Below are positions 1 through 60,999 of a stretch of 64,000 bases of DNA, in pieces. The position numbers and the translations under genes were made by a program. The notes beneath the pieces are model-generated. The model was not told the DNA's origin, made no database searches, and saw only the letters and a program-made list of their open reading frames with translations. This DNA comes from Artocarpus heterophyllus (Eukaryota > Streptophyta > Magnoliopsida > Rosales > Moraceae), in assembly GCA_025403435.1 (NCBI GenBank), contig CM046341.1, positions 11,679,219-11,743,218 on the forward strand. The letters run 5' to 3'. Positions within the stretch are counted from its first letter, which is position 1, and every line of letters starts with the position of its first letter.

Positions 1-246
1 TGGCGACTCGTTATAAAGACTCGGAAGATCTCGCTTTTTTCCCCCACAAATCCTATTCGAAAGCCAAAAAGCGTTTTTTTCAGAGAAAACAAAAAAAGAA
101 CCGAAATTAACGACTGAATCTGCATCTCTGCCAGGACTTCTGAAACGAAAACCAAAGAAAGAAACACAAGAGAAAAGAGACTTTAGCGTTTCGAGTTTCG
201 AGTTTCGAGTTTCGTGAAAGAATAGAGAGGGTTTTCATTAAAGATA
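1..246 (+). promoter_or_regulatory. 5' leader / proximal promoter of the beta-amylase gene
   Basis: Non-coding sequence directly upstream of the beta-amylase start. It is A-rich and pyrimidine-poor close to the ATG and contains about four head-to-tail copies of a 7-bp GTTTCGA unit at roughly 188-214. The window begins inside this region, so the core promoter may lie outside it. The ATG at 247 sits in a reasonable plant context (a purine at -3, G at +4). That the region is transcribed leader is inferred from its position and was not shown. Confidence 0.5.
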
Positions 247-3024
<2,778 letters not shown>

Positions 3025-14499: not shown

Positions 14500-14504
14500 C
14501 GATG
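14500..14504. other. Target-site duplication of the inner retrotransposon (left copy)
   Basis: CGATG at 14500-14504 and again at 23651-23655, exactly flanking the two ends of the inner element. A 5-bp duplication is standard for LTR retrotransposons. It also fixes the first base of the 5' LTR at 14505, where the expected TG has mutated to CG. Confidence 0.85.
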
Positions 14505-16885
14505 CGTGACACCCGTTATTCTCCTAACGGGTATTAAAGTAATTAAATTAATTTTTAGTGTATCAATCAAAAAAAAATTTTTTTTTTGCTTCATTTAAAA
14601 TTTATTTTACAATATTTATTTTTATCTATTTTTAAATTTTCTAAAATTCTCCTATATTTATTTAGTATGTTTACTGAAAAACCTTAAAACTTCTAATAAA
14701 TCTCAAAAATGTCATATTGGCATTATGTGCGTTAAAGTCTCCAGATGAGACATAAGGATATCTTTTCCAACTACTTTTGACCCTCATTTTCTTTATTTCC
14801 TCCATGACATGCTTCAACATGTCTCCTTCATAATTGCTTCTATCACTTCTCTTCAAAGACTTCATCTTTTCTTCCTTTTTCTTCCACGGTTCCCACACTC
14901 TTCTTCTCATTTATTTGCTGAAGCAAAATACTTAGAGAACTTCTTCAAGCCAGTCATAAAAATCACCCACCATCACCTCCATTTGAGCAAGAATTTCAGT
15001 CATACCGAAGTCAAAGAACTTGTTTTGAAGTCATTTCAAGCTTCCAACTAACCATAATCCGAGGTTAGAATCTTATGAACAAATTAAGTCTTTCATTTAT
15101 AAATTTTTTTTATATACTCAAGGATTATTCAAATTTGCGTTCTTAAACCTAAGTATACGTTTTGTCGCTATTTTGGAGCATATGTATAAAGTCTAAGTGT
15201 ATATGCCCTAGACAGAAAATTTATATTGTTAAACTTTGTAATACCTCTATGGGCAGTGGCTATTTCTTGAAATTCTGGGATTAAATTAAAATGAATTTTA
15301 TAAATTGGTTTGCATATTTAAAAAGTAGACATCCTAATCTTTCTAACGAGCTATCATAAACCTAAATCGGAGTTGTATTTTATTTTCCATGAAATTTTTA
15401 ATTTTCGGATTAAAAACTAGTAAACCTGCCAGTTTGTCATGGTATACCAGCTGCTAATCTGAACCAAGAACCCATCTTTGCTCACCACTTAATTCCTTAA
15501 TGTCTTGCAACATTTCCAATATTATCCTAAGTGATTGATGAATCTTATTAGGGACTAAAACATATAGATTACTTGTTTAATTTTATATTGTGTTAAGACA
15601 AAAATTGTTTACTGTGGTATTTAAAAAAAAAAGATTTGCATAAAGGCTTTAATGGCACACTAATAAGATGGATTTACACATGATTTATTTATGAATATGG
15701 TTGTATGTTGTACTTTAGTTTTAATTGTCCTTATGCACGCCTTAGGATCAAGGGAGTTTGGAGCTAACGTTAATTGATTCCGAGATTTAAAGATTGATGA
15801 TAAGCTTGGAAGGTAGGGATTCTATTACTCATCTTTTGTGAGGTTTTTCTGAAATTAAATTTGATTGTTTTACCGCAAGATATATATATATCTGTGTTGA
15901 ACTGATATTATATGAGTATCACATATGAAACTATGACATGGACTCGTCTTGTATTGTACGGCGAGGAACATAATGAATTGACACATGTTATAAATTGAGA
16001 AGCATGGTTAGGAAAACTAACTATATTAATAATGATTGAATATAGAGAAATGTTGAGACATGAAGAGGGCGGCGGTTATGTCCTTGGGCATGAATACCCT
16101 AAAAGGTAAAATAAGGGGAAAGGTGATGACGCTTTCTTGGGTTGAAAGTCCTAGAACACACTGTACAAGAATCGACTTGATGAGGACTCGGGGCTTGATG
16201 TCCCCTCGCTGGAACACCCTTGGTATGTTTAGAGGGTGATCAAATGCGCCCATTTGGGTTTCGATGAGTTAAGTGATACTCTATTTAACGTGGATACTTA
16301 GGAACAATGATGATTGGTAATATTTGTATAAATGTATAATTATGAAACTTTGTAATGATTAACTATGGTATCCACAAGATGTGATTATAATAAACCTCAT
16401 AGTCTGGAATATGATGTAACTTAACTAACCATGCAAGTTTTAATGTGGTAATGATAAAAACCTAAAGGTGAGTAATGGTTTTCTCTACTGAGCATATTGT
16501 CGCTCATATTTTCTTATATTTTTATCTTTTCAAGACTCATTAAGTGTGAGGTGGCTACGAGAAAAATAGTTGAGGAAGCTATGTAGCTATATTACGTTGG
16601 GACTGCTTCAATTGCTAAGAATGTTCTTCATGATAATGTAAGCATTAATTGTTACTTTCTGTAACTGTATTAAAATGCGTTGAGGGTTGAAATGATGATG
16701 ACAGTTTTATATTATTAAATTTAAGGTGCTACATTAAACTGTGGTTTAATCATCGTTTATATTTTATTTTTAATTTAAGAGTTTTCATTTAAGTCCTGGG
16801 CAACTTTATTTTTAAGGTTTTATTTTATTTCTGATTTTTATTTTATTTTATTAAAAACTGTTAATCCCTATATAGGGGCGTTACA
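14505..16885 (+). repeat. 5' LTR of the inner retrotransposon
   Basis: It begins CGTGACACCCG (the 3' LTR has the expected TGTGACACCCG) and ends GGGGCGTTACA. It is about 2.38 kb long, matches 21281-23650 along its length with scattered substitutions and small indels, and is related to the reverse-oriented solo LTRs at 47772 and 59025. Confidence 0.92.
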
Positions 16886-16892
16886 GAATTTT

Positions 16893-16904
16893 TGGTATCA
16901 GAGC
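16893..16904 (+). other. Primer-binding site (initiator tRNA-Met)
   Basis: TGGTATCAGAGC, seven bases after the 5' LTR end. This is the standard plant primer-binding site complementary to the 3' end of initiator methionine tRNA, from which minus-strand DNA synthesis would start. Confidence 0.92.
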
Positions 16905-18240
16905 CTAGGTTCGATTAACCTAGGGAGTGTAGCACACTTTTTAAAAAAATTATTTTTGAGATGGTTTTGAAGCTGAATTTTCATTGTCATCATCAAAATG
17001 AATCTTTACGTTGATTTATACAGTCTAGAAGGATGTAACATGGAAAAGCCCTAGAATGAAAATATTAACGGTTATATGAGTACGATAATTATATAGAATG
17101 AAAGTATTAATAGTTATGAGGGATGATAATTATATGGAATGGGTTTATAAGTAGAATGCTTATGAGAGATTCATATAATATTAAGATCTATAAGCATATC
17201 TAATTCGTATAGAATGATGAAAATTTTGTGTAGAAATGAGAATTTAAGAGCCTTTTATCTCGTGAAAAATAATAAGAAATATAAGGCTTGATTTATTGAT
17301 TTTAAAGTTTGGCATAGATATGTCAAATTCTTCGTAATTGATTCAGACCTAAGTAATGATTGTGTGTGAATTCGGTGGAACACATAAGTGTCAATAACTT
17401 TTCTTGAAAGTTCTTTTTACTTGAGGAATATGAGATAAGTTAGGAATTCATGGTATTGAATCTTGAGTGAGATAAATGTTAGACTTTTGATCTGTTGAGA
17501 CTGTGTAAAGGTAAGAATGTATGAATTTCAATGTTGGAATATTTTGTTAGGTACATTGTATTTAAGTGAATCAGTGAATATTTATGCATAGATGCAATGT
17601 GAAAATGACCAATAGGAGTTTCCTTAAGTAAATCATAATACTTAAGGCACCTATAATAATTTTGGATAATTACGATAAAAGGTTTAACTTCTAGATGTTT
17701 AGATGTGAATCTTTTGGTTACCTAAGGTTTTGTTATATGAGGAAATTAAATATTGTATAAGTGGAATTATGGGGATTGTAGATGTTCTTAAGTAGTAACA
17801 TCAAGTGTCTTTGTTCATTGATATGGTCTATGTTGGAAGACATAAATCGTATTGATTTCAAGGTTAGTCACATTCTAAACCCTTGGTAGTAATGATGATG
17901 AATCCATTGATAGATGTTGAGTATTAGGAATAACATATGGGTGTATGCATTGTTCAATAAGGTTTTGATTAAAACAAATTATTTGAGTTGCTAGAAGATT
18001 ATGTTGTTATGAAATGATTTTAAATACCATTCAGAAAGATCCTTGATTATTGTTAAATTAGACTTCTTGTTCATAGTTAATTTTATCTTTAGTGGGCTTT
18101 GAATTGGGCTTAAGATCTGTATAAATTGGTTTTCAATTTTATGTTTGTTATTTAACTCATTCTAAATGTATTAAGGCCTAAAACAACCTAACCGATTTCA
18201 ACTTAGAACATTTGGGCTTAGTCTAAATCCTAAATCAGTT
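16905..18240. other. Untranslated internal region of the inner retrotransposon
   Basis: About 1.3 kb of AT-rich sequence between the PBS and the first ORF where gag would normally start. It has dense stops in all frames and no gag-like or zinc-knuckle text. It probably served as leader and packaging region (inference). Confidence 0.6.
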
Positions 18241-18506
18241 TGATTCACACTGTCTCTCCCACGTGGTCTCTATACGTGTCATATACAATGGTTTAATTAT
18301 TGTTTACATATACGTTTACTGTGCATAGGAGCTTATTTCTCCGAGCTCACTTTCTCTCTCTTAATTTGTTATTTTCTCTCTAAATCGCAAATCCTCTTCT
18401 TTTTCACTAGAAATTCTTCTTTCCCTCTAAAAGAAGAAGGAATTCTAGGATTCTGTAACTTACTATCTCAATTTTTCCTTTCTATTTACTCTTCTTTCAT
18501 CTCATC
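18241..18506 (+). promoter_or_regulatory. Possible internal promoter and pyrimidine-rich leader
   Basis: A G-box CACGTG at 18260-18265 is followed by a TACGTGTC motif at about 18272-18279, an AT-rich stretch, and a 160-bp CT-rich run leading to the ATG at 18507. This looks like a host-gene promoter/5' leader and not retrotransposon packaging sequence. It may have been captured with the ORF or have evolved to drive it. There is no functional proof. Confidence 0.35.
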
Positions 18507-18917
18507 ATGGACCCAAAGTATCAACACCTGATAAAGTACTTCCCATCACTCTCCCAAAAGATTCTCAGAAAGAAATACAAGGCTAGAATCACTCGGTTGT
18601 GGATTCTTATGCGTTTTGGCATCCCTTGTGATGTGAGAATGTTGATAGAGGGGAAGATCCGTCCGAGTGACTTCAGTCAAGATGTCGGTTTACCAGGAAT
18701 GGGTACCAGTCGTAGTGCAATGAAAAGAAGAGCTCGTGCCATCATGATCACTTGTAACAAATATGGAAGACAAAATTGTAATGGTAAATGTACTTCACCT
18801 GGCTATATGTCTACGAATAGAGAGGATAAAATAAGGTTTTGTAGGGATGGACTTTCAAAGGAGAACTTGAATAGCATCCATCCTCCTCTTCATGGTCACC
18901 CTAGTGGATATGTTTAA
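18507..18917 (+). CDS. Carlavirus-type cysteine-rich nucleic-acid-binding-like protein (136 aa)
   Basis: An intact, intronless 136-codon ORF in the interior of the LTR element. The layout fits the cysteine-rich protein (CRP/NABP) at the 3' end of carlavirus genomes. Residues ~28-49 form a helical segment (LWILMRFGIPCDV). A basic SRSAMKRRARA patch follows at 68-78, then clustered cysteines 83, 91 and 95 with CNGKC..PG, then the terminal IRFCRDGLSKENL part around Cys112. One expected finger cysteine appears to be Tyr86. Carlavirus CRPs bind nucleic acid through a zinc-finger-like motif; several suppress RNA silencing, and one (chrysanthemum virus B) acts as a plant transcription factor promoting cell proliferation. 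The similarity is by motif spacing and order, not by a search. A plant protein with a similar finger is the main alternative. It lies 0.75 kb upstream of the LOG-like ORF. Confidence 0.5.
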   Translation: MDPKYQHLIKYFPSLSQKILRKKYKARITRLWILMRFGIPCDVRMLIEGKIRPSDFSQDVGLPGMGTSRSAMKRRARAIMITCNKYGRQNCNGKCTSPGYMSTNREDKIRFCRDGLSKENLNSIHPPLHGHPSGYV

Positions 18918-19669
18918 GGAGCTATTTTTAAACTCTGGCCTAAATTTTATGCAAAAAGACAACGCCTCAAGAATATGGTATTTCTAGATCCTGTTTGCCA
19001 AGCCATAAGAAAACTGGATGGGGAATAAGTCATCGCTCTATAAAGGTTGTTTAGTCTTTGCTTATTTGAAACAGTTTCAGTTGATGTTCAATAGTTTGTG
19101 TTTTTCTTCTACTTAGAATATTTGTCTTTGCGTTTGAAATAATTATGATTATTAGATTGATACAGTAAGTGTTAGTATTTTATTTAATTTATGGTTTTCT
19201 TAAATATATATATAATAAAATATATTATCTTATCAGGCACGTCACATACAATACAGTAACATGTTTAAATTTTGAAAACTTATTCAGATATTTTAAGATT
19301 TGTGTCTCAAATTTTAAAGTTCTACAGTATTTGTTGTTTATATTGAATTTCTAGACTCGGTATATATTTGTCAAAAGGTTTGCAGTTGTGTCAAGAGGGT
19401 CTTCTGTCAAACTGTTCTCAATTGTCAAAAGTTATACAATTAGAGTCTAATCTTTTTCAAAAATTAAATCAGATTTTCTGTAAACTATCAATCACTTTAT
19501 CTTACTTTCTTATCCATACAAGATTTTGTTTAAATCTTTCGATTACCTTTTCATTACCTACTCGTCTGTCTCTTTAGTCCTTTTTGTGTATTCTTCATCC
19601 TTAAAATCTCATGTAGAACCCGAAGTCTAAGTGGAGCAGACATTAAGCAATCACTTATATAAACTAAAT
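18918..19669. other. Spacer between the two cargo ORFs
   Basis: 750 bases of AT-rich sequence (poly-AT stretches around 19170-19230) with no recognisable coding content or clear second promoter. Confidence 0.5.
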
Positions 19670-20320
19670 ATGTCTACCTCCCAGTTCACCAAGAAAATAA
19701 AGAATGTCTGTGTCTTTTGTGGTTTCAGCCTTGGAAAAGATAAAGCCTATTTAGAAGCTGCAAAACACTTAGGGCAAGTCCAAGCATGCATGAAGATTAA
19801 CATAATCTATGGGGGTGGTAATATAAAAATGATGGAAAATATGACGCTAACAGCTAGGTCTAGTGACGCTACAGTTGTAGGAATTTAGCCTCATATTTTA
19901 GCTGAAGGAAACCTTTATAAGGAAGCCATAGGTAAGGGAAAAGGAGTCAGGAGCATCCCTAGAAATTTTAAAGCCATAATCAATAATTCTGATGCTTTTA
20001 TAGCATTATCTGGTGGTCTAGGTACTCTTGAGGAAATATTCGTAGTTGCTTGTGAGCAATATTTGGGCTTTTGTTCCAAACCCTTGGGACTATTGAATGT
20101 AAATGGTTTTTATAATGGTCTTTTAAAATTTCTAGATTACGCTGTAGAAGAAAACATCATTGTAGAATCGGAGAGACAAATCTTTGTTACTGCTTCAACA
20201 ACTGAGGAATTGATAGATAAAATGCAAATCATACATCCAGAATCCAACACTGCAACATCCAAGCTTGAATGGGAAAGGGAAATCCGGGAGTGGACAATTG
20301 ATTTGAATCTCCATCTGTAA
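19670..20320 (+). pseudogene. LONELY GUY (LOG)-like phosphoribohydrolase, intronless, one in-frame stop
   Basis: One frame runs from ATG 19670 to TAA 20318-20320 (216 codons), interrupted only by TAG at 19886-19888 (codon 73). LOG enzymes release active cytokinin base from the riboside 5'-monophosphate in one step. Recognisable parts are VCVFCGFSLGKDKAYLEAA (residues ~13-31), IIYGGG (43-48), SDAFIALSGGLGTLEE (107-122, the PGGxGTxxE motif with Pro changed to Ser), KPLGLLNVNGFYN and the C-terminal SKLEWE. The length equals that of host LOGs. Host LOG genes have several introns and this copy has none, so it was probably captured from mRNA. Residues 73-105 are diverged and the conserved RK..MA segment is unclear. 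Either it is a pseudogene or the stop is a recent hit in this copy alone. Confidence 0.85.
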
Positions 20321-21267
20321 TCTTTTGGTTTTATCTATGGCATGTAGACATGTGTGTCCGTATTTTATGTGTCACGAATAACCGTTAACCTTGTATTTTG
20401 CATTTCTTGTGGTACGCCGTTGTTCAATCTTTTAGATTCATTGAGCCTAATGCTGGGATGGCTGGATACGGAGTACTTATTGCTCTCGAAACGCATCCTA
20501 CTTAAGGTCCGATCTTTTGTTTATCGATGTTTTTGTATTCTCTAAGCATGCATGATATGGATAGCTGGTATACGGAGTGCCTTGTACTCTCGAAAGGTAT
20601 CCGTATCATGTTTATAACATGTAATATTTTGTTAATATTATGTGGAAGTACCAAAGTCAGTTATGGGGATATTCCATAGGAAATATGAGTATATTATTTG
20701 GGTTGAATGTTTGTGTCATGAGGATAGCTGTTTAATGAAAAATATGTCGGGTTTGTTTGTAACTCTGAGATTCTGTTTAATATCTCTATGAATAAGTTTA
20801 ATGTATGGTTTTGAATAAAAGTGTTTGTGATATATGTTTTATGATTATGTTTTGGTTTATTAGTTGAAATATGAAATCAACTTTATTTGACTTTTCCTTA
20901 CTTAGAAAGGAAAAGGAACCTAAAGATGAAGTATATAAAATTTCTCTGGCAATCTCCTTAAATGTGATTGCAAATCACAGTCAATGGACAATGAAAGACT
21001 GGAATCATGGTATGGTCAATATGGATGCTTGATCATATTCTTAGACCATTATACAGTGTTATAAGTTGAAACTTGTCAGAAATACTCTCATTGAAGGATT
21101 TAAAATTTAGAGTAAGATTTATCATGCAAGTAAATAAGTGGAGATACGATAACTTAAATTTGGAGAACAAACAACATTAACGGTTTAGACTCAGAATTGG
21201 AGTCATAATGGATTCAAAATTTTTACTAGTATTGCTAGAATTGAAATTTTGAGGACGAAATTTCTTT
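20321..21267. other. 3' internal region of the inner retrotransposon
   Basis: No protein recognised. It holds an imperfect direct repeat: about 20452-20503 and about 20550-20604 share GGCTGGATACGGAGT-like and CTCTCGAAA..ATCC blocks. The last 150 bases lead into the polypurine tract in the manner of gypsy elements. Confidence 0.5.
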
Positions 21268-21279
21268 AAAGGGGTAGAG
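21268..21279 (+). other. Polypurine tract
   Basis: AAAGGGGTAGAG just before the 3' LTR (21281) and preceded by GAGGACGAAATTTC, the usual gypsy arrangement for priming plus-strand DNA. Confidence 0.85.
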
Positions 21280-21280
21280 C

Positions 21281-23650
21281 TGTGACACCCGTTATTCTCC
21301 TAATGGGTATTAAGGTAATTAAATTAATTTTTAGTGTATCAATAATAAAAATTGCTTCATTTAAAATTTATTTTAAAATATTTATTTTTATCTATTTTTA
21401 AATTTTCTAAATTTCTCCTATATTTATTTAGTATGTTTACTGAAAAACCTTAAAACTTCTAATAAATCTCAAAAATGTCATATTGGCATTATGTGCGTTA
21501 AAGTCTCCAGATGAGACGTAAGGATATCTTTTCCAACTACTCTTGAACCTCATTTTCTTTATTTCCTCCGTGACATGCTTCAACATGTCTCTTCCATAAT
21601 TGCTTCTATCACTTCTCTTCAAAGACTTCATCTTTTCTTCCTTTATCTTCCACAGTTCCAACATTCTTCTTCTCATTTCTTTGCTGAAGCAAAATACTTA
21701 GAGAACTTCTTCAAGGCAGCCATAAAAATCAGCCACCATCACCTCCATTTGAGCAAGAATTTCAGCCATACCAAAGTTAAGGAACCTGTTTTGAAGCCAT
21801 TTTAAGCTTCTAACTAACCATAATCCGAGGTTAGAATCTTATGAACAAATTTAGTCTTTCATTTATAAATTTTTTTTATATACTCAAGGATTATTCAAAT
21901 TTACGTTCTTAAACCTAAGTATACTTTTGTCGTTATTTTGGAGCATATGTATAAAGTCTAAGTGTATATGCCCTAGACAGAAAATTTATATTGTTAACTT
22001 TGTAATACCTCTATGGACAGTGGCTATTTCTTGAAATTCTGGGATTAAATTAAAATGAATTTTATAAATTGGTTTGCATATTTAAAAAGTAGACATCCTA
22101 ATCTTTCCAACGAGCTATCATAAACCTAAATCAGAGTTGTATTTTATTTTCTATGAAATTTTCAATTTTCGGATTGGAAACTAGTAAACTTGCCAGTTTG
22201 TCATGGTATACCAGCTGCTAACCTAAACTAAGAATCCATCTTTGCTCACCACATAATTCCTTAATGTCTTGCAACCTTTCCAATATTATCCTAAGTGATT
22301 GATGAATCTTATTATGGACTAAAACAAATAGATTACTTGTTTAATTTTATATTATGTTAAGACAAAAATTGTTTACTGTGGTATTTAAAAAAAATTGCAT
22401 AAAGGCTTTAATGGTACACTAATAAGATGGATTTACACATGATTTATTTATGAATGTGGTTGTATGTTGTACTTTAGTTTTAATTGTCCTTATGCACGCC
22501 TTAGGATCAAGGGAGTGTGGAGCTAACGTTAATTGATTCCGGGATTTAAAGATTGATGATAAGCTTGGAAGGTAGGGACTCTATTACTCATCTTTTGTGA
22601 GGTTTTTATGGAATTAAATTTGATTGTTTTACCGCAAGATATATATATATATATATATCTATGTTGAACTGCTATTATATGAGTATCACATATGAAACTA
22701 TGACATGGACTCGTCTTGTATTGTACGGCAAGGAACATAATGACTTAACACATGTTATAAATTGAGAAGCATGATTAGGAAAATTGACTCTATTAATAAT
22801 GATTGAATATAGAGAAATGTTGAGACATGAAGAGGGCGGCAGTTACGTCTTTGGGCATGAATACCCTAAAATGTAAAATAGAGGAAAGGTGATGACGCTT
22901 CCTTGGGTTGAAAGTCTCAGAACACACTGTACAAGAATCGACTTGGAGAGGACTCGGGGCTTGATGTCCCCTCGTCAAAACACCCTTGGTATGTTTAGAG
23001 GGTGATTAAACGCGCCCATTTGGGTTTCAATGAGTTGAGTGATACTCTATTTAACATGGATACTTAGGAACAATGATGATTGGTAATATTTGTATAAATG
23101 TATAATTATGAAACTTGGTAATGATTAACTATGGTATCCACGAGATGTGATCATAATAAACCTCATAGTCTAGAATATGATGTAACTTAACTAACCCTGC
23201 AGGTTTTAATGTGGTAATGATAAAAACCTAAAGGTGAGTAATGGTTTTCTCTACTGAGCATATTATCGCTCATTCCCTTATATTTTTATCTTTTTCGGAC
23301 TCACTAAGTGTGATGTGGCTACGAGAAAAATAGTTGAGGAAGCTATGTAGCTATATTACGTTGGGACTGCTTCAATTGCTTAGAATGTTCTTCATGATAA
23401 TGTAAGCATTAATTGTTACTTTCTATGACTGTATTAAAATACGTTGAGGGTTGAAATGATAATGACAGTTTTATATTATTAAATTTAAGGTGCTACATTA
23501 AACTGTGGTTTAATCATCGTTTTATATTTTATTTTTGATTTGAGAGTTTTCATTTAAGTCTCGGGCAACTTCATTTTTAAGGTTTTATTTTATTTCTGAT
23601 TTTTATTTTATTTTATTAAAAACTGTTAACCCCCATATAGGGGCGTTACA
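21281..23650 (+). repeat. 3' LTR of the inner retrotransposon
   Basis: From TGTGACACCCG to GGGGCGTTACA, followed by the CGATG target duplication. It pairs with 14505-16885 and differs at scattered sites, including a longer TA run at about 22640-22660. Confidence 0.92.
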
Positions 23651-24624
23651 CGATGTATTGGATCGGGACATAAAGTGAAGTGATTTGGCTTAATAATTCT
23701 GTCTCGACAAATCAATTCACTTTAGACAATCATTTGTATTGTATCTTAATCCTGAGATGAATAGTAGGCCTGTTGTCTTGACTTATGTCTTTTGATGTGC
23801 CAAAGGGTGACACCTACATCTTAATAGTGGTATGCATGTTGGTACGTTGGAGGCATGACTCTTGATAGCGTAGACTTGTTATTCATAAATATAGAATCCA
23901 TAGCTCTTTTTTAGGAGTAATGATATCCTCTTATATGCGCTATCATGTAATTAGAAAACTGGAGCTCTCAACCATTTGGATACATAGGTGTAACCGAATA
24001 GTATTCTATCTTTGGATAGTAAGTTTTCTGATGGTGCGATAATGGAGCGTAAGATAAAAATAATCGGGAATGTAAGATAGAATTTGTCCTTAAGCCGATT
24101 ATGGATTATCATATGGGGATACGATACACTATGATATGTCATGGAGACTTAGCTATACGGGCTTCGTAATTCTATGTAGTTCGAGAGTGCAGCTCCAAGC
24201 TTTTAGTGGAGTAGCGTTGAAGTTGATAATTATGAAATGTATATCTGGGATATTGGGTTTCGTAATTATCGAGAGCTTGAACTATATAAGTCCATTTGGT
24301 CCCCTTTGCTTGCTTACAACATCTTGTAATGATACAACGTGCTTTTCCAATGATTGGTAACTTATGTCAGATTTATCAAATTGGTTAAAATTTGGAAGAA
24401 TTAAATAATTATTGTTTGTTTATCGGTTGATTTAATTTTTGATAAATTAGATCAAGATAAACTTGTAGAATTATTAGAAATTCATTTATTTTCTTAGAGA
24501 TTATCTAGATAAAGTTGTTTTGATCAGATAACTTCTCTATTGGGTTATTTGAATTAAAACTGAGACTTAATCCTATAGAATCTCGGGTGAAAAATGGAAG
24601 ATTCACGGAGATTTTTTTTTGACA

Positions 24625-30600: not shown

Positions 30601-33600
30601 AAAAGGAATGGTGGAAGTTCCCTTTTGTTTCAGAATTTCTGCGTAAAAATGGTTTTGAGTCTGCTTTGAAAGTGGTTGTTGGCTCTGAGACAGTCCAAGC
30701 CCGTCAGTTTGTGAATTATGCCTTTGGGCAGCTAAAATCCTTCAACGATGCTTACCTTACTAAGGATTGGATGTTGAACAGTGATAAAAATGGCCAAAAA
30801 GAGATTGGAAAATCTAATGAAGTTACTGTTGTGTCAGACATGCCTTCGCAAATGGAAGACAGTGCTGTAGGCCCCACAAATAGTTGCAGTGATGGGAACA
30901 ACTTAGAGGAGCTTCACACTGATGATGATGGATTGGGAAATGGGCATTCTGCTGAAGTCGTACCACAAGTTGAAGAGACAATGGGGTCAGGTAAACATTT
31001 TTGGAAGAACTTCGCTAATGTTATCAATCAAAGCGTTGTTCAGAAACTTGATCTTGCAACTCCAGAGAAATTTAAGTGGGATGGATTTGACTTGTTGAAC
31101 AGAATTGGTTTACAATCAAAAAGTATGGCAGAAGCAGGTTACATTGAATCTGGGCTTGCCACTTCAGAAGGCATGGATGAAGCCCATGATGAAACAAGCG
31201 GCCCTGTTGACATTAATACTGTCCGTTCTTCCCTTCCAGATATAAAGAAGGCAACAGAGGATCTCTTAAAGCAAACAGATTCCGTCTTAGGAGCTTTTAT
31301 GGTTTTGACAGCAGCAATTTCTGAATCAAACAAGGAATCACGTCTTTCAGACAAGAGTGCTAAACAAGAGGGTGTTTCTAGTGAAGATGTAATGAATGAA
31401 AAGCTTGCTTCGCTAGATGGGCCAGTGCTGGATGAAAAGAAAGCTCAGGAGATGAAGGAACTATTTTCAACAGCAGAGAGTGCCATGGAGGCATGGGCAA
31501 TGCTTGCTACTTCTCTAGGACAACCGAGTTTTATAAAATCAGAATTCGTGAAGATATGCTTCTTAGATAATGAATCTACAGACACACAGGTATTCTTTTT
31601 CCTCTTTGCAAGGAGCTTACTTTATTGGTTAGATTTCCTTAACAAAATAAAGAAGGGAATATGTTATCTCTAATATTGTCTGTAAAGAATCCTGGTTTTT
31701 TATTTTTGGAAACACTAAAGTAAGAAAAGCTGCAGGTGGCAATTTGGCGAGATTCTACGAGGAGAAGACTGGTTGTTGCTTTTAGAGGAACAGAACAGGT
31801 GTGGCATAGATTGTGGTTATTACCGGAGTTGAATGTATAGCTTTCCGTTGAAGATGCTAATGTATTTGATTTTGCAGACAAAATGGAAGGACTTGAAAAC
31901 GGACTTAATGCTAGTACCAGCTGGGTAATATCTATATATCTTTTTTTCCAAGTTTTTTGTTTTACTTGTATTTATATCTCTTTTCATCTGATGTTTTGTG
32001 TGATATTACATGTCTAAATGATGGGTCCTTCTAATTATATTGGTACTTGTTTCAGTGGAGAATTTACAAGGTACTAGATAAATTGCAACATATTTGTTAG
32101 TGTTGCTAAATGCTTCATTGTATTAAGGGTTGGAGAATATACAATGTACTAGATAAATTGCAACATATTGGTTATTGTTGCTTGATGCTTCCTTGGATTG
32201 AGGGTTGTAAAATTCACAATGTACTAGATAAACATATTTGTTAGTGTAACTTAACGCTTCACTGTATTAAGGGTCAAATATCACACGTGCTACATTGTTA
32301 GCTTCCTGCTTAGCAGTGAAGAAACTAGTTGCATGAAACTTATGGCAGAATATGTGCCGCTGCATTTTGTAAATAAGCATTTGTTTTATTAATATTCTTC
32401 CACATATTCTTCTCATCTCATGCTCATGTAAGCATAACTTACCTTCCATAGGAAATGGGGTTTTGGTGTTTGGAATTATATCAAGGGCTTTTTCTTGTTC
32501 AGTTGTTGATTGTTTTTTATCTCATCTTAGATCTTTTTGTTATGAGATTTGTCCTTTTTTCTTTGTTACGTTAAGATAGGTCAATAAATCATGTGCATCA
32601 TTCTGTTTCATTTTTCAGGCTAAATCCTGAAAGGATTGGCGGAGACTTCAAACAAGAAGTTCAAGTAAGCAGCTGAATATTCTGCTACAATTTTATAAGT
32701 TGCAGATTACTGAGGACATTTTATTATTTTTTGATATACTATGGTGATTATTTATTTCAGGTTCACAGTGGTTTCTTAAGTGCATATGATTCGGTTAGAA
32801 TAAGAATTATCTCTCTTATCAAACAGGCAATTGGTTATATGTAAGTCATGTCTTCCATTTATGTAACTGGCTTTTATTTTTTACAAATATGGTATCACAG
32901 GAATAGTTGATGCTTGAAATAATGATGGAGGAATTATTCACTGCAAGTTAATATGGAAGGATTATTTTAGGTACTTTTGAAACATTTTCCTTTTTCTTCT
33001 AAGGATGAACATGATTTATGCTAATCACCAAATCTTCAAAAATAAGTTTTTGGAAGATAGAATAGAGCTAGATCTCGTACTAACTTGGACATTAGTACCT
33101 GTCGAAATTATATCCTGAAGTTTAGTTTCCACTTCTAAACATTTAGGTTGTGCTTGGTGAGAGAAAAAGTAATAGGAAGGAATTAAATAACCTAGTTGAC
33201 GAAAATGGAAGGGAAAGGTGTGGACCTTTCTATTGTTACGTTTGGGATGTATTCGCTCCTCCAATTCTTTCATATTAGGAGATATTTAACTTTGGTTCTT
33301 CAAAGGATTTGAATTCCCTCACCCATTATATTCCCTCTTTTCTTGCCTATCAAACAACCCTGCATCCCAAACCCCCCTTCCAATTTTTGACTAGGCACGG
33401 GGTTAACTTTATGGATCTGATCAAACTTAAACATTTGAATGGTCAAGTACTATCTTCAAAGGATTTGAATTCCCTCACCCATTATATTCCCTCTTTTCTT
33501 TCCTATCAAACAACCCTACATCACAAAATCCTTCCACTAATTCCCTGACCCCTCCACCCTTCCAATTTTTGACTAGGCACGGGGTTAACTTTATGGATCT

Positions 33601-34111
33601 GATCAAACTTAAACATTTGAATGGTCAAGTACTATTTTCTCAGTTTAGGAAGCAAAAAGAATTATTTATTTTCTATGACAGCGATGATCATGGAGAGCGG
33701 CCACTCAAATGGCATGTTTATGTGACTGGTCATAGCCTCGGAGGTGCATTGGCAACCCTTCTTGCACTGGAACTTTCATCAAGTCAATTCGCAAAGTAAG
33801 TTATTTCTTCTCCAGTAAATTAAGTTTTCTTGTTATCACATGTGCAGTCAATATATTGGTCACTTCCAAAAGTCCTCCATTTACTTGGTGTTTTTGGTGG
33901 GAACACCGTTGCGACACACTGAGCTATTCATACAGGTAGCAGGGTAACAAGAAGGATCTGCAAAAGTTCAGTATGTTGTTTGGAATGTGGATGTTTGTGT
34001 GTGGACAAGTATAATTACAGAAAATATTAACCAGTTGTGTTGTCCTTGGTTTTCCCCAAAATCTGATCCTAGAATTGCTGATTAGTTTTTTTTTGTTTTG
34101 CTTTGCTATGC

Positions 34112-47766: not shown

Positions 47767-47771
47767 GAAAC

Positions 47772-49745
47772 TGTAACGCCCCTATGTGGGGGTTAACAGT
47801 TTTTAATGAGATAAAATAAAAATAAATAATAAAAGTAAAGCCTTAAAAATAAAATTTACCCGGGACTTAAATGAAAACTCTCAACTCAAAAATAAAAATA
47901 TAAACGACAAATAAACCACAGTTTTAATGTAGCACCTTAAATTTAATAATATAAACTGTTGTCATCATCATTTTAACCCTCAACACATTGTAATACAGTC
48001 ACAGAAAGTAACAATTGATGCTTACATTATCATGAAGAACATTCTCAACAATTGAAGCAGTCCCAATGTAATATAGCTACATCACTTCCTCAACTATATT
48101 TCTCGTAGCCACCTCACACTTAGTGAGTCCTGAAAAGATATAAACATAAGGGTATGAGCAACACTATGCTCAGTAGAGAAAGCCATTACCCACCTTTAGG
48201 TTTTTATCATTACCACATTAAAATCTGCATGGTTAGTAAGTTACATCATATTCCAGATTATGAGGTTTATTATGATCACATCTTATGGATACCGTAGTTA
48301 ATCATTACCAAGTGTCATAATTACACATTTATACAAATATTACCAATCATCATTGTTCCTAGGTATCCATGTTAAATTGAGTATCACTCAACTCATCGAG
48401 ACCCAAATGGGCGCACTTGATCACCCTATAAACATTCCAAGGGTGTTCCGGTGAGGGGACATCAAGCCCCGAGTCCTCACCAAATCGATTCCTGTACAGT
48501 GTGTTCTGGGACTTTCAACCCAAGGAAGCGTCATCGCCTTCCCCCTATTTTACCTTTTAGGGTATTCATGCCCAAGGACGTAACCGTCGCCCTCTTCATG
48601 TCTCACAATTTCTCTATATTGAATCATTATCAATAGAGTTAGTTTTCCTAACCATGCTTCTCAATTTATAACATGTGTCAATTCATTATGTTCCTCGCCG
48701 TACAATACAAGACGAGTCCATGTCATAGTTTCATATGTGATAATCATATAATATCAGTTCAACATAGATATATATATATTGCGGCAAAACAATCAATTTT
48801 AATTCTATAAAAACCTCACAAAAGATGAGTAATAGAATCCCTACCTTTTAAGCTTATCAACAGTCTCTTAATCCTGGAATCAATTAACGTTAGCTCCATA
48901 CTCCCTTGATCCTAAGGCGTGCATAAGGACAATTAAAACTAAAGCACAACATACAACTACATTCATAAAATTTATTTTAATTTAATCTTAGAATTTCAAG
49001 AAATAACCACTGCCCATAGAGGTATTATAAAGTTTAACAATATAAATTTTCTGTCTAGGGCATATACACTTAGACTTCATACATATGCTCCAAAATAGCA
49101 ACAAACATATACTTAGGTTTAAGAACGCAAATTTGAATAATCCTTTAGTATAAAAGAAAATTTATAAATGAAAGACTAAATTTGTTCATAAGATTCTAAC
49201 CTCGGATTATGGTTAGTTGGAAGCTTGAAATGGCTTCAAAACAGGTTCCTTTAGTTCGGTATGACTGAAATTCTTGCTCAAATGGAGGTGATGGTGGCTG
49301 ATTTTTATGGCTGCCTTGAAGAAGTTCTCTAAGTATTTTGCTTCAGCAAAGAAATGAGAAGAAGAGTGTGGGAACCGTGGAAGAGAAAGGAAGAAAAGAT
49401 GAAGTCTTTGAAGAGAAGTGATGGAAACAATTATAGAGGAGACATGTTGAAGCATGTCACGGAGGAAATAAAGAAAATGAGGGTCAAGAGTAGTTGGAAA
49501 AGATATCCTTATGTCTCATCTAAAGACTTTAACACATATAATGCCAATATGACATTTTTGAGATTTATTAGAAGTTCTAAGGCTTTTTAGTAATCATACT
49601 AAATAAATATAGGAGAATTTTAGAAAATTTAAAAATAGATAAAAATAAATATTATAAAATAAATTTAAATGAAGCAATTTTTTTTTATACATTAAAAATT
49701 AATTTAATTACCTCAATACCCGTTAGGAGAATAACGGGTGTCACA
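47772..49745 (-). repeat. Solo LTR related to the inner retrotransposon, target duplication GAAAC
   Basis: Reverse orientation relative to 14505-16885: it starts TGTAACGCCCC and ends ACGGGTGTCACA. GAAAC stands at 47767-47771 and 49746-49750, so this is a genuine solo LTR. It is ~400 bp shorter than the intact LTRs. The missing part corresponds to about 15306-15692, with a TTTAT microhomology at the junction. Confidence 0.9.
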
Positions 49746-49750
49746 GAAAC

Positions 49751-59024: not shown

Positions 59025-60999
59025 TGTAACACCCCTATGTGGGGGTTAACAGTTTTAAATAAATAAAAATAATTTTAAATTTTAAATTATTTAAATCAAT
59101 TAAACAATGCCCATGGGTCTTTAAACAACAAGAAAAATAAAAATAAAAATAAACGTTTTAAATACAAACCACAGTTTTTAGTGTAGCACCAAATATATAT
59201 AATTACAGTCATCATCACCATAGTACAATTCCCAAATAACTTAACACAGCCATAAAAAAATAATACAACTCTTACATGTTGTAGATAAGTTGTAATTAAA
59301 CAGGGTCTTCTAACACGAAAACAGCAAGATTGTTTTCGCTTATTCCTCTTCAGATATGTTGCACTGAGTTCCACCTGAGATATGAAGATATGATAGGGAT
59401 GAGCATCGACATGCCTAGTAGGGAAATCATGACTCACCTTATGGTTTATCCATTACCACATTAAAAACTGCATGGTTAGTAGGTTACATCATATTCCAGA
59501 TTATGAGGTTTATTATGATCACATCTTATGGATACCGTAGTTAATCATTACCAAGTGTCATAATTACACATTTATACAAATATTACCAATCATCATTGTT
59601 CCTAGGTATCCATGTTAAATTGAGTATCACTCAACTCATCGAAACCCAAATGGGCGCACTTGATCACCCTATAAACATTCCAAGGGTGTTCCGGTGAGGG
59701 GGACATCAAGCCCCGAGTCCTCACCAAATCAATTCCTGTACAGTGTGTTCTGGGACTTTCAACCCAAGGAAGCGTCATCACCTTCCCCCTATTTTACCTT
59801 TTTGGGTATTCATGCCCAAGGACGTAACCGTCGCCCTCTTCATGTCTCACCATTTCTCTATATTAAATCATTATTAATAGAGTCAGTTTTCCTAACCATG
59901 CTTCTCAATTTATAACATGTGTCAATTCATTATGTTCTTCGCCGTACAATACAAGACGAGTCCATGTCATAGTTTCATATGTGATACTCATATAATATCC
60001 GTTCAACATAGATATATATATATTGCGGCAAAACAATCAATTTTAATTCTATAAAAACCTCACAAAAAAATGAGTAATAGAATCCCTACCTTTCAAGCTT
60101 ATCAACAATCTTTTAATCCTGGAATCAATTAACGTTAGCTCCACACATCCTTGACCCTAAGGCATGCATAAGGACAATTAAAACTAAAGCACAACGTATA
60201 ATCACATTCATAAGTGAGTTATGTGTAAACCCGTCTACTAGTGCCATTAAAGTATTTTTATGCATTAAACATGGAGAAAATACATACTAAAAACTAAGTT
60301 TAGATTAAAGAAAACCTACCTCAAAACTTCTTTGAAAAGCACCAAAGTTTGGGTTATCAATCAAGCTTGAATTAACTCTAAAACCGCCTCGATCATGGTT
60401 GGGAATTATAATTGTCTTGGCCACAAAGAGAGCTTTGTGCTCTATGTCTTTAGTTAGAAATTTGAAGTGAGAAGGGAGAGAATGAGAACTAGAGAAGAAG
60501 GTGGTGATAGTTAAATAAAAAGATATCAAAATGCTTAAGAGGAATGAGATGTTTACAGGGGAAAATTGTAAGAAGGAACAAAAGAGTCTTAAAGGAAAAT
60601 ATCATCTTGTCTCCCATGAAGACTTTTAGCAAATAATGCCAACATAATTGAGGGGATAATTGGAGTGAATTATAGAAGAAGATAAGGAAATAATTAATTA
60701 GGTGGTTGAGAAAATATCTCCATGTCTTCTATGAATTGACGGAAAATAATTCAATGTCCCCTTCGGATACCTTTAGCAAAATGAGAAGAAGTCTATATAA
60801 TTGAGCAATAATTTAGGGAGACAAGATTGGTAGAAGTAAGTGTTGGTAAGTTTTGAATGTTTCTTAGGAAGACTTGGTAAGAAAATACTAAAGTGGCATT
60901 TTTTTTTAAATGATCATAAACAACTTAGTAATTTTAAATAGTCACATTTTATTCATTAAATTTTACAAAATTATGCCCGTTAAAAATACGGGTGTTACA
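59025..60999 (-). repeat. Second, more diverged solo LTR, target duplication GATTC
   Basis: Starts TGTAACACCCCTATGTGGGG and ends ACGGGTGTTACA, flanked by GATTC at 59020-59024 and 61000-61004. The outer parts differ strongly from the other LTRs. The middle (about 59451-60190) is nearly the same as 48211-48960 in the other solo LTR. Confidence 0.9.

Follow-up and report, generated by a model that had tools for sequence, protein, structure and literature searches.

A multi-copy LTR retrotransposon family of Artocarpus heterophyllus carries a predicted relative of flexiviral nucleic-acid-binding proteins beside a LOG-like gene

We analyzed a 64,000-nucleotide stretch of the Artocarpus heterophyllus genome (G000:C15:11679219-11743218, "the window" below; the genome comprises 985 Mb), which contains a long terminal repeat (LTR) retrotransposon at 14505-23650. 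This element, itself inactive, belongs to a multi-copy LTR retrotransposon family, in which the order LTR-gene-gene-LTR is repeated across many genomic copies. The first gene is a predicted relative of the flexiviral cysteine-rich protein/nucleic-acid-binding protein family (CRP/NABP; the gene is called NABP below), and the second is a LOG-like gene. The pair recurs in other plants, and in most copies the LOG-like protein has lost an arginine while retaining a C-terminal tail. We propose that the window element is an inactive copy of a non-autonomous family carrying an inherited two-gene accessory cassette with a presumed anti-silencing role, a tentative reading to which we assign a probability slightly below one half (0.48).

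Paired LTRs with a target site duplication, and a primer binding site (PBS) and polypurine tract adjoining the LTRs, identified the element as an LTR retrotransposon (Table 1). The preliminary description of this DNA, which had reported 2.4-kb LTRs, the duplication CGATG, an initiator tRNA-Met PBS and a purine tract, proved right in each of these features. The two LTRs differed by 82 transitions and 27 transversions over 2360 sites, a Kimura two-parameter (K2P) divergence of 0.048. At plant substitution rates of 0.7-1.3e-8 per site per year, this divergence corresponds to an age of roughly 2-3.5 million years. The PBS TGGTATCAGAGCC was assigned using what we take to be the sequence of initiator tRNA-Met, and 13 of 20 long copies matched its 12-base core TGGTATCAGAGC exactly. 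The end of the purine tract (GAGGACGAA...AAAGGGG) resembles, we believe, that of Tekay-type elements, and we presume it to be chromoviral. PMC6317226 assigns tRNA-Met primers to most chromoviruses and to those Ty1/copia lineages that use complete tRNA primers, and not to non-chromovirus Ty3/gypsy elements. The primer site of the element is of a kind present in chromoviruses, in line with a chromovirus/Tekay element; Ty1/copia elements share it, so that it is not decisive alone. It is absent from Athila/Tat elements and disagrees with the non-Met primer tRNA of Athila.

No retroelement Pfam match was obtained at E<=0.1 for the 10 scanned pieces among the 23 internal stop-to-stop pieces of at least 50 amino acids, in which two chance Pfam matches occurred. 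Further, a search of the window with the integrase of L001, a retrotransposon contig described below, gave no match at E<=1. The RNase H piece of L001 produced a single match, which was at chance level (E 0.14) and lay beyond the element. Since neither gag nor pol was recognized, in agreement with the preliminary description, we read the element as non-autonomous, and the family is apparently so as well. Its copying would have to rely on the proteins of another element.

The own genome was searched at the DNA level with 18300-19100 as the query, and 40 of 3022 first-look candidates were scored; the match counts of this search are lower bounds. At least 40 scored matches, the window included, were 96-100% identical to the query. 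This contradicts a one-off capture, the outcome against which the preliminary description had proposed such a search. We retrieved 38 of the 39 other scored copies, a sample selected for its resemblance to the NABP region. Sequences of both genes were present in all 20 long copies examined, with LOG split by an insertion in L028 and lacking its end in L024. Both LTRs, with clear ends, were measured in three copies besides the window: L019 (K2P 0.022, exact target duplication AGTTC), L024 (0.032, exact duplication AACCC) and L023 (0.037, flanking duplication mismatched at one base of five). The NABP frame was uninterrupted by stops or indels in 28 of 38 other copies (28/39 with the window) and the LOG frame in 18 of 37 other LOG-bearing copies (18/38 with the window); of the 20 long copies, 7 had both frames uninterrupted. 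Same-family LTR pieces without an internal region, 88-94% identical, were also observed on the minus strand of the window at 47771-49746 and 59378-60252, and are probable solo or broken LTRs.

The first gene had been described as an intact 136-codon frame. It is instead a prematurely stopped frame, ending in the window at 18915-18917 and open to 19025 (173 codons) in 28 of the 38 other copies, and its zinc finger is damaged by replacement of one Cys with Tyr. The zinc-finger pattern C.KCGR..C...C was present in 18 of the 20 long copies and absent in the window, L021 and L023; the family thus has the flexiviral CRP/NABP layout of a basic stretch followed by a four-cysteine finger. The 136-residue product alone gave no Pfam match and nothing useful in PHROGs. 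The proteins nearest to the window NABP were P0001 (91% identity), P0002 (65%) and P0003 (60-61%), one of which lay above the curated Carla_C4 cut-off, the other two matching viral families below it. A profile search retrieved 175 proteins at E<=10, and PF01623 was detected in 116 of the best 120. Among 35 aligned members, Carla_C4 (PF01623) matched 30 and Viral_NABP (PF05515) 27 at E<=0.01. The named relatives among the matches listed came from Hibiscus, Orobanche, Striga, Xanthoceras, Acer and Citrus, and relatives were present in both rosids and asterids; many are approximately 182 amino acids long. One further relative, P0114, is filed under Clostridioides difficile on a 293-bp contig and is probable plant contamination.

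The best AlphaFold model of a relative, P0010, had a mean predicted local distance difference score of 81.6 and a predicted template-modelling score of 0.62. When this model was compared with viral models using Foldseek, the individual matches were weak (best E 8.8e-3, none at 1e-3). Eighteen of the best 22 rows were named; 16 of these were called nucleic-acid-binding, RNA-binding or silencing-suppressor proteins and the remaining two were "15kDa protein" and "HP". We take all 18 to be flexivirus proteins; the named matches were 62-202 amino acids long. A sequence search of the PDB with the NABP profile gave only four matches, all with E above 0.5, and scans of viral contigs confirmed no relative. 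By its profile and structural matches, the first gene would thus be placed with the flexiviral CRP/NABPs, with which it shares the basic region and finger. It differs from them in being encoded by an LTR element and in having a C-terminal part, DPVCQ.IRKLDG, common to many plant members.

We next consider selection on the two genes. Pairwise Nei-Gojobori ratios were 0.50 for NABP (19 rows) and 0.53 for LOG (10 rows). Variants were sorted by the number of copies sharing them, which separates recent decay from older change. In indel-free rows (37 NABP, 24 LOG), omega of NABP was 1.14 for singletons and 0.35 for variants in four or more copies (z -2.74), and that of LOG was 0.92 for singletons, 0.89 for variants in 2-3 copies and 0.57 for those in four or more (z -1.89). 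A second test used every matched row, read in six frames, and variants in four or more copies. The true NABP frame gave an omega of 0.39 (z -2.55), the five wrong frames gave z from -1.28 to 1.44, and the spacer control was near neutral (z -0.93 to 0.69). Further, comparison of the NABPs of L001 and L017 (pN 0.352, pS 0.751) indicated synonymous saturation with protein conservation. Purifying selection on the first gene is therefore supported, although not proved, and NABP has probably been under constraint in the transposing lineage. A dN/dS near 1 for both ORFs in all copies had been named beforehand as the mark of a one-off capture; widely shared variants of the first gene departed from this value, whereas the evidence for LOG was weak.

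The LOG-like frame was full length, as reported previously, and its reading is broken in the window by one internal stop (19886-19888). The window part matched PF03641 (E 1.8e-9), as did P0123 (216 amino acids, 84% identity, E 9e-22), the nearest relative by identity among the matches listed. The resemblance to LOG noted earlier, like that to carlavirus CRPs, proved right. GGxGTxxE and the arginine of MHxR are functional motifs of the LOG phosphoribohydrolase. At the position aligned with this arginine, the window and 33 of 37 copies have Asn; one copy has Tyr, and three (L014, L022 and L026) have Arg. Because 33 of the 37 copies carry Asn here, a cytokinin role of the protein in this family is doubtful on sequence grounds, and the earlier proposal of cytokinin release is weakened, although most copies keep GGxGTxxE. 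The LxLxL tail stood at the C-terminus in the window and in 33 of 37 copies. In a relative, P0164, the alignments to all 17 matched PDB LOG sequences did not extend into the tail, and to our knowledge host LOGs lack such a tail. The LOG of L014, L022 and L026 is of a second type, with 81-86% DNA identity to that of the window and a more LOG-like middle part; its presence in otherwise similar elements possibly reflects exchange between subfamilies.

Of 7993 proteins scored in a LOG profile search, 3670 reached E<=0.001, and patterns were counted in the best 120. The tail (L.[LIF].L at the end or up to three residues from it) was present in 110 and strict LxLxL in 108, frequencies biased upwards by inclusion of the tail in the profile. 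GGxGTxxE was kept in 58 and broken in 62, of which 58 retained the tail. Within the same 120, Citrus entries had GGxGTxxE in 0/44 and the tail in 41/44, and Orobanche entries in 8/19 and 16/19, respectively. In a tree of 69 rows (Citrus-type rows thinned, 205-240 amino acids only so that fused models were left out, and no certified host-LOG outgroup), P0123 lay on a long branch adjoining a group with a Populus protein, a placement that is unsure. P0186 (Populus trichocarpa LOGL10) groups with the LxLxL-tailed set and may be element-borne. The P0152 cluster has 705 members and is named cytokinin riboside phosphoribohydrolase by one source, although its motif is PGDLATLEA. The proteins of this and other Citrus LOG-like clusters possibly belong to transposons and are misnamed as hormone enzymes, a warning for users of Citrus database entries so named.

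Outside this genome, NABP-LOG fused gene models were found in Orobanche and Citrus. The fusions may be annotation artefacts, and they show the adjacency of both genes regardless. Further, the neighbouring Orobanche locus tags OROGR_009122 and OROGR_009121 are an NABP/LOG pair on one contig, and the longest contigs of the pair P0010/P0164 are both 8723. The occurrence of the same pair in distantly related plants points to an accessory module that they have in common and that would serve to escape control by the host. In L001, a Ty3/gypsy-type element, an integrase (PF00665, PF17921) is followed directly by an uninterrupted NABP frame identical to that of L017 at 90 of 172 residues. The same NABP family is thus present in another retrotransposon. 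Unlike the window element, L001 has pol, and no LOG was seen within 983 bp downstream of its NABP. Judging from its integrase sequence, L001 is putatively Athila-like. This plant-like contig (1-3330) is filed in a Candidatus Nomurabacteria metagenome-assembled genome (DAIEQH010000041.1), and its place in a prokaryote collection is probable contamination.

As to the possible origin and role of the pair, the internal region would be an accessory cassette of two genes and of old date. Other eudicots also have one or both of these genes, at least once within a different retrotransposon. The LOG-like gene was probably captured from a host LOG via RNA, because the frame here has no intron and host LOG genes contain introns. 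Its protein would act in this lineage as a LOG-fold adaptor rather than as a cytokinin enzyme, since LOG active-site residues have been lost in several lineages and the LxLxL end has been retained; the EAR-like tail would contact corepressors of the TOPLESS type, TOPLESS being the usual partner of LxLxL motifs. NABP would bind RNA or DNA and blunt host silencing of the element, because homologous viral CRPs suppress RNA silencing; one of these, CVB p12, is also a transcription factor causing hyperplasia (PMC12172455). Homology to characterized viral suppressors makes the anti-silencing idea directly testable, and the LOG partner, with its tail kept and active-site residues lost, provides a second testable prediction. 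We consider it unlikely, however, that the broadest version holds, namely that plant Ty3/gypsy elements carry a widespread, selected counter-defence cassette of an RNA-virus-type suppressor and a LOG-fold protein that in several lineages abandoned cytokinin chemistry for TOPLESS recruitment by its C-terminal EAR motif, transferable between LTR lineages and amplified by elements without replication genes.

Parts of this arrangement have precedents. LOG-type (YgdH) domains have been published for Gypsy elements of Citrus and, once the authors' count filter is lifted, for those of Populus (PMC9289625); sequences from both hosts are also among the LOG matches listed here. Steinbauerova (2011), which PMC9289625 cites, reportedly describes two Athila-like elements similar to LOGL4. 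The earlier view that such a pair was undescribed in a retrotransposon can thus hold for the pair itself and its viral-type member, and not for LOG. Like the YgdH elements, the window element is a Ty3/gypsy LTR element of a plant with a LOG-type gene, and it differs in its unrecognized gag-pol, its tRNA-iMet primer site and the viral-type NABP beside LOG. The accessible portions of PMC9289625 do not mention NABP, the LxLxL tail or active-site decay, and in those of a review of extra open reading frames (ORFs; PMC7264820) neither YgdH nor LOG, carla or nucleic acid binding had a match. No report of a Carla_C4/NABP partner in retrotransposons was found in a search lying outside subscription papers and supplements. 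Viral helicase genes or domains occur in insect long interspersed nuclear elements (PMC4686597, PMC5563155), which likewise are retrotransposons that acquired a gene of a positive-strand RNA virus; the type of element, the helicase and the insect hosts differ. For the conserved extra ORFs of Tekay elements, a role in modulating RNA silencing has been proposed (PMC11728184). These elements resemble the present case as chromoviruses with a conserved accessory ORF and a silencing-related proposal, and differ in that the protein is another one without known domain, gag-pol is present and the proposal comes from structural resemblance.

Several results count against the cassette reading, and some of them agree with a rival view. 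Here a cassette-bearing element would have given rise to the family through deletion or recombination, and the genes would be inert passengers, decaying neutrally in an element that itself parasitizes another. The window copy is dead, being broken in both genes. With transitions and transversions taken apart, omega was 0.81/1.17 for NABP and 0.76/0.66 for LOG, and NABP diversity was equal across the three codon positions, contrary to strong constraint. Singletons of both genes were close to neutral, as were NABP variants in 2-3 copies (omega 1.11). The four-copy cut was our choice among several: lower cuts gave weaker NABP values (0.67, z -1.55, for at least two copies; 0.53, z -1.98, for at least three), and higher ones gave 0.30 (at least five), 0.43 (at least six) and 0.33 (at least eight), the last resting on few variants (five). 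Sampling by NABP similarity introduces a bias, which the wrong-frame control removes only in part. The true LOG frame (omega 0.69, z -1.50) was poorly separated from its other frames (z -1.05 to 1.12), and its omega across other cuts was 0.48 to 0.75, so that purifying selection on LOG is suggestive only. The other four AlphaFold models of P0010 scored only 54-62, far below the best. In the LOG-like protein, the tail frequency is inflated as noted above, and an Arg lies one residue upstream of the lost MHxR Arg in the main own-genome type, so that an alignment shift is conceivable. Neutral decay nevertheless leaves the widely shared NABP variants (omega approximately 0.4 with near-neutral wrong-frame and spacer controls) and the many uninterrupted frames of both genes unaccounted for, and we hold it to be possible rather than probable.

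The cassette reading also competes with the mechanism first suggested for this element, in which silencing would be suppressed by the CRP-like protein and cytokinin increased locally by the LOG-like one, both favouring transposition in dividing cells. On that view the element may be a counterpart of oncogene-bearing retroviruses. The Pfam assignment of P0123 to the LOG fold is in its favour, as are the exact PGGLGTLEE of 27/37 own-genome copies (SGGLGTLEE in the window), the arginine of the three second-type copies and the joint presence of GGxGTxxE, MxxRxxxM and tail in 42 of the best 120 relatives; enzyme activity may accordingly be ancestral or still remain. Replacement of the MHxR arginine in all but three of the 37 copies, and the loss of GGxGTxxE from 44/44 Citrus and 11/19 Orobanche relatives listed, most of which keep the tail, make this mechanism quite improbable as judged from these residues. 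The direction of transfer is a separate matter. Flexiviral CRP genes could themselves derive from a plant or retrotransposon gene, since homology alone is silent on direction, NABPs occur in both rosids and asterids, and many, at approximately 182 amino acids, are longer than most named viral structural matches; we regard this as rather unlikely. LOG is a common plant gene family and cucumber contains an endogenous flexivirus replicase sequence (PMC3136472), which might suggest ordinary host genes or an endogenous virus between LTRs inserted by chance. The target duplications of L019 and L024, exact and their own, and that of L023 with its single mismatch speak against this, and no further viral gene was observed next to NABP. 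Since LTRs and gene order are common to the copies, we rejected both readings and consider them extremely improbable.

Table 1. Features of the retrotransposon, in window coordinates
Feature	Position	Strand	Remark
Target site duplication CGATG, left copy	14500-14504		repeated at 23651-23655
5' LTR, 2381 bp	14505-16885	+	first base differs: CGTGACACC in place of TGTGACACC
Leader/internal region, gag/pol not recognized	16886-18506	+	
Primer binding site TGGTATCAGAGCC	16893-16905	+	matches 3' end of initiator tRNA-Met
NABP frame, 173 codons + stop	18507-19028	+	relative of flexiviral CRP/nucleic-acid-binding proteins
Spacer between NABP and LOG-like frames	19029-19669	+	19040-19639 used as non-coding control
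LOG-like frame, 216 codons + stop	19670-20320	+	C-terminus IDLNLHL; coding part to 20317
Polypurine tract AAAGGGGTAGAGC	21268-21280	+	preceded by GAGGACGAA motif at 21251-21259
3' LTR, 2370 bp	21281-23650	+	
Target site duplication CGATG, right copy	23651-23655		

Elsewhere in the window, no tRNA gene was found by a scan in the bacterial setting. Exon-like ORFs at 226-3024 presumably resemble plant beta-amylase, judging from a motif, and an ORF at 33431-33799 contains a GHSLGG motif, which we take to be lipase-like.

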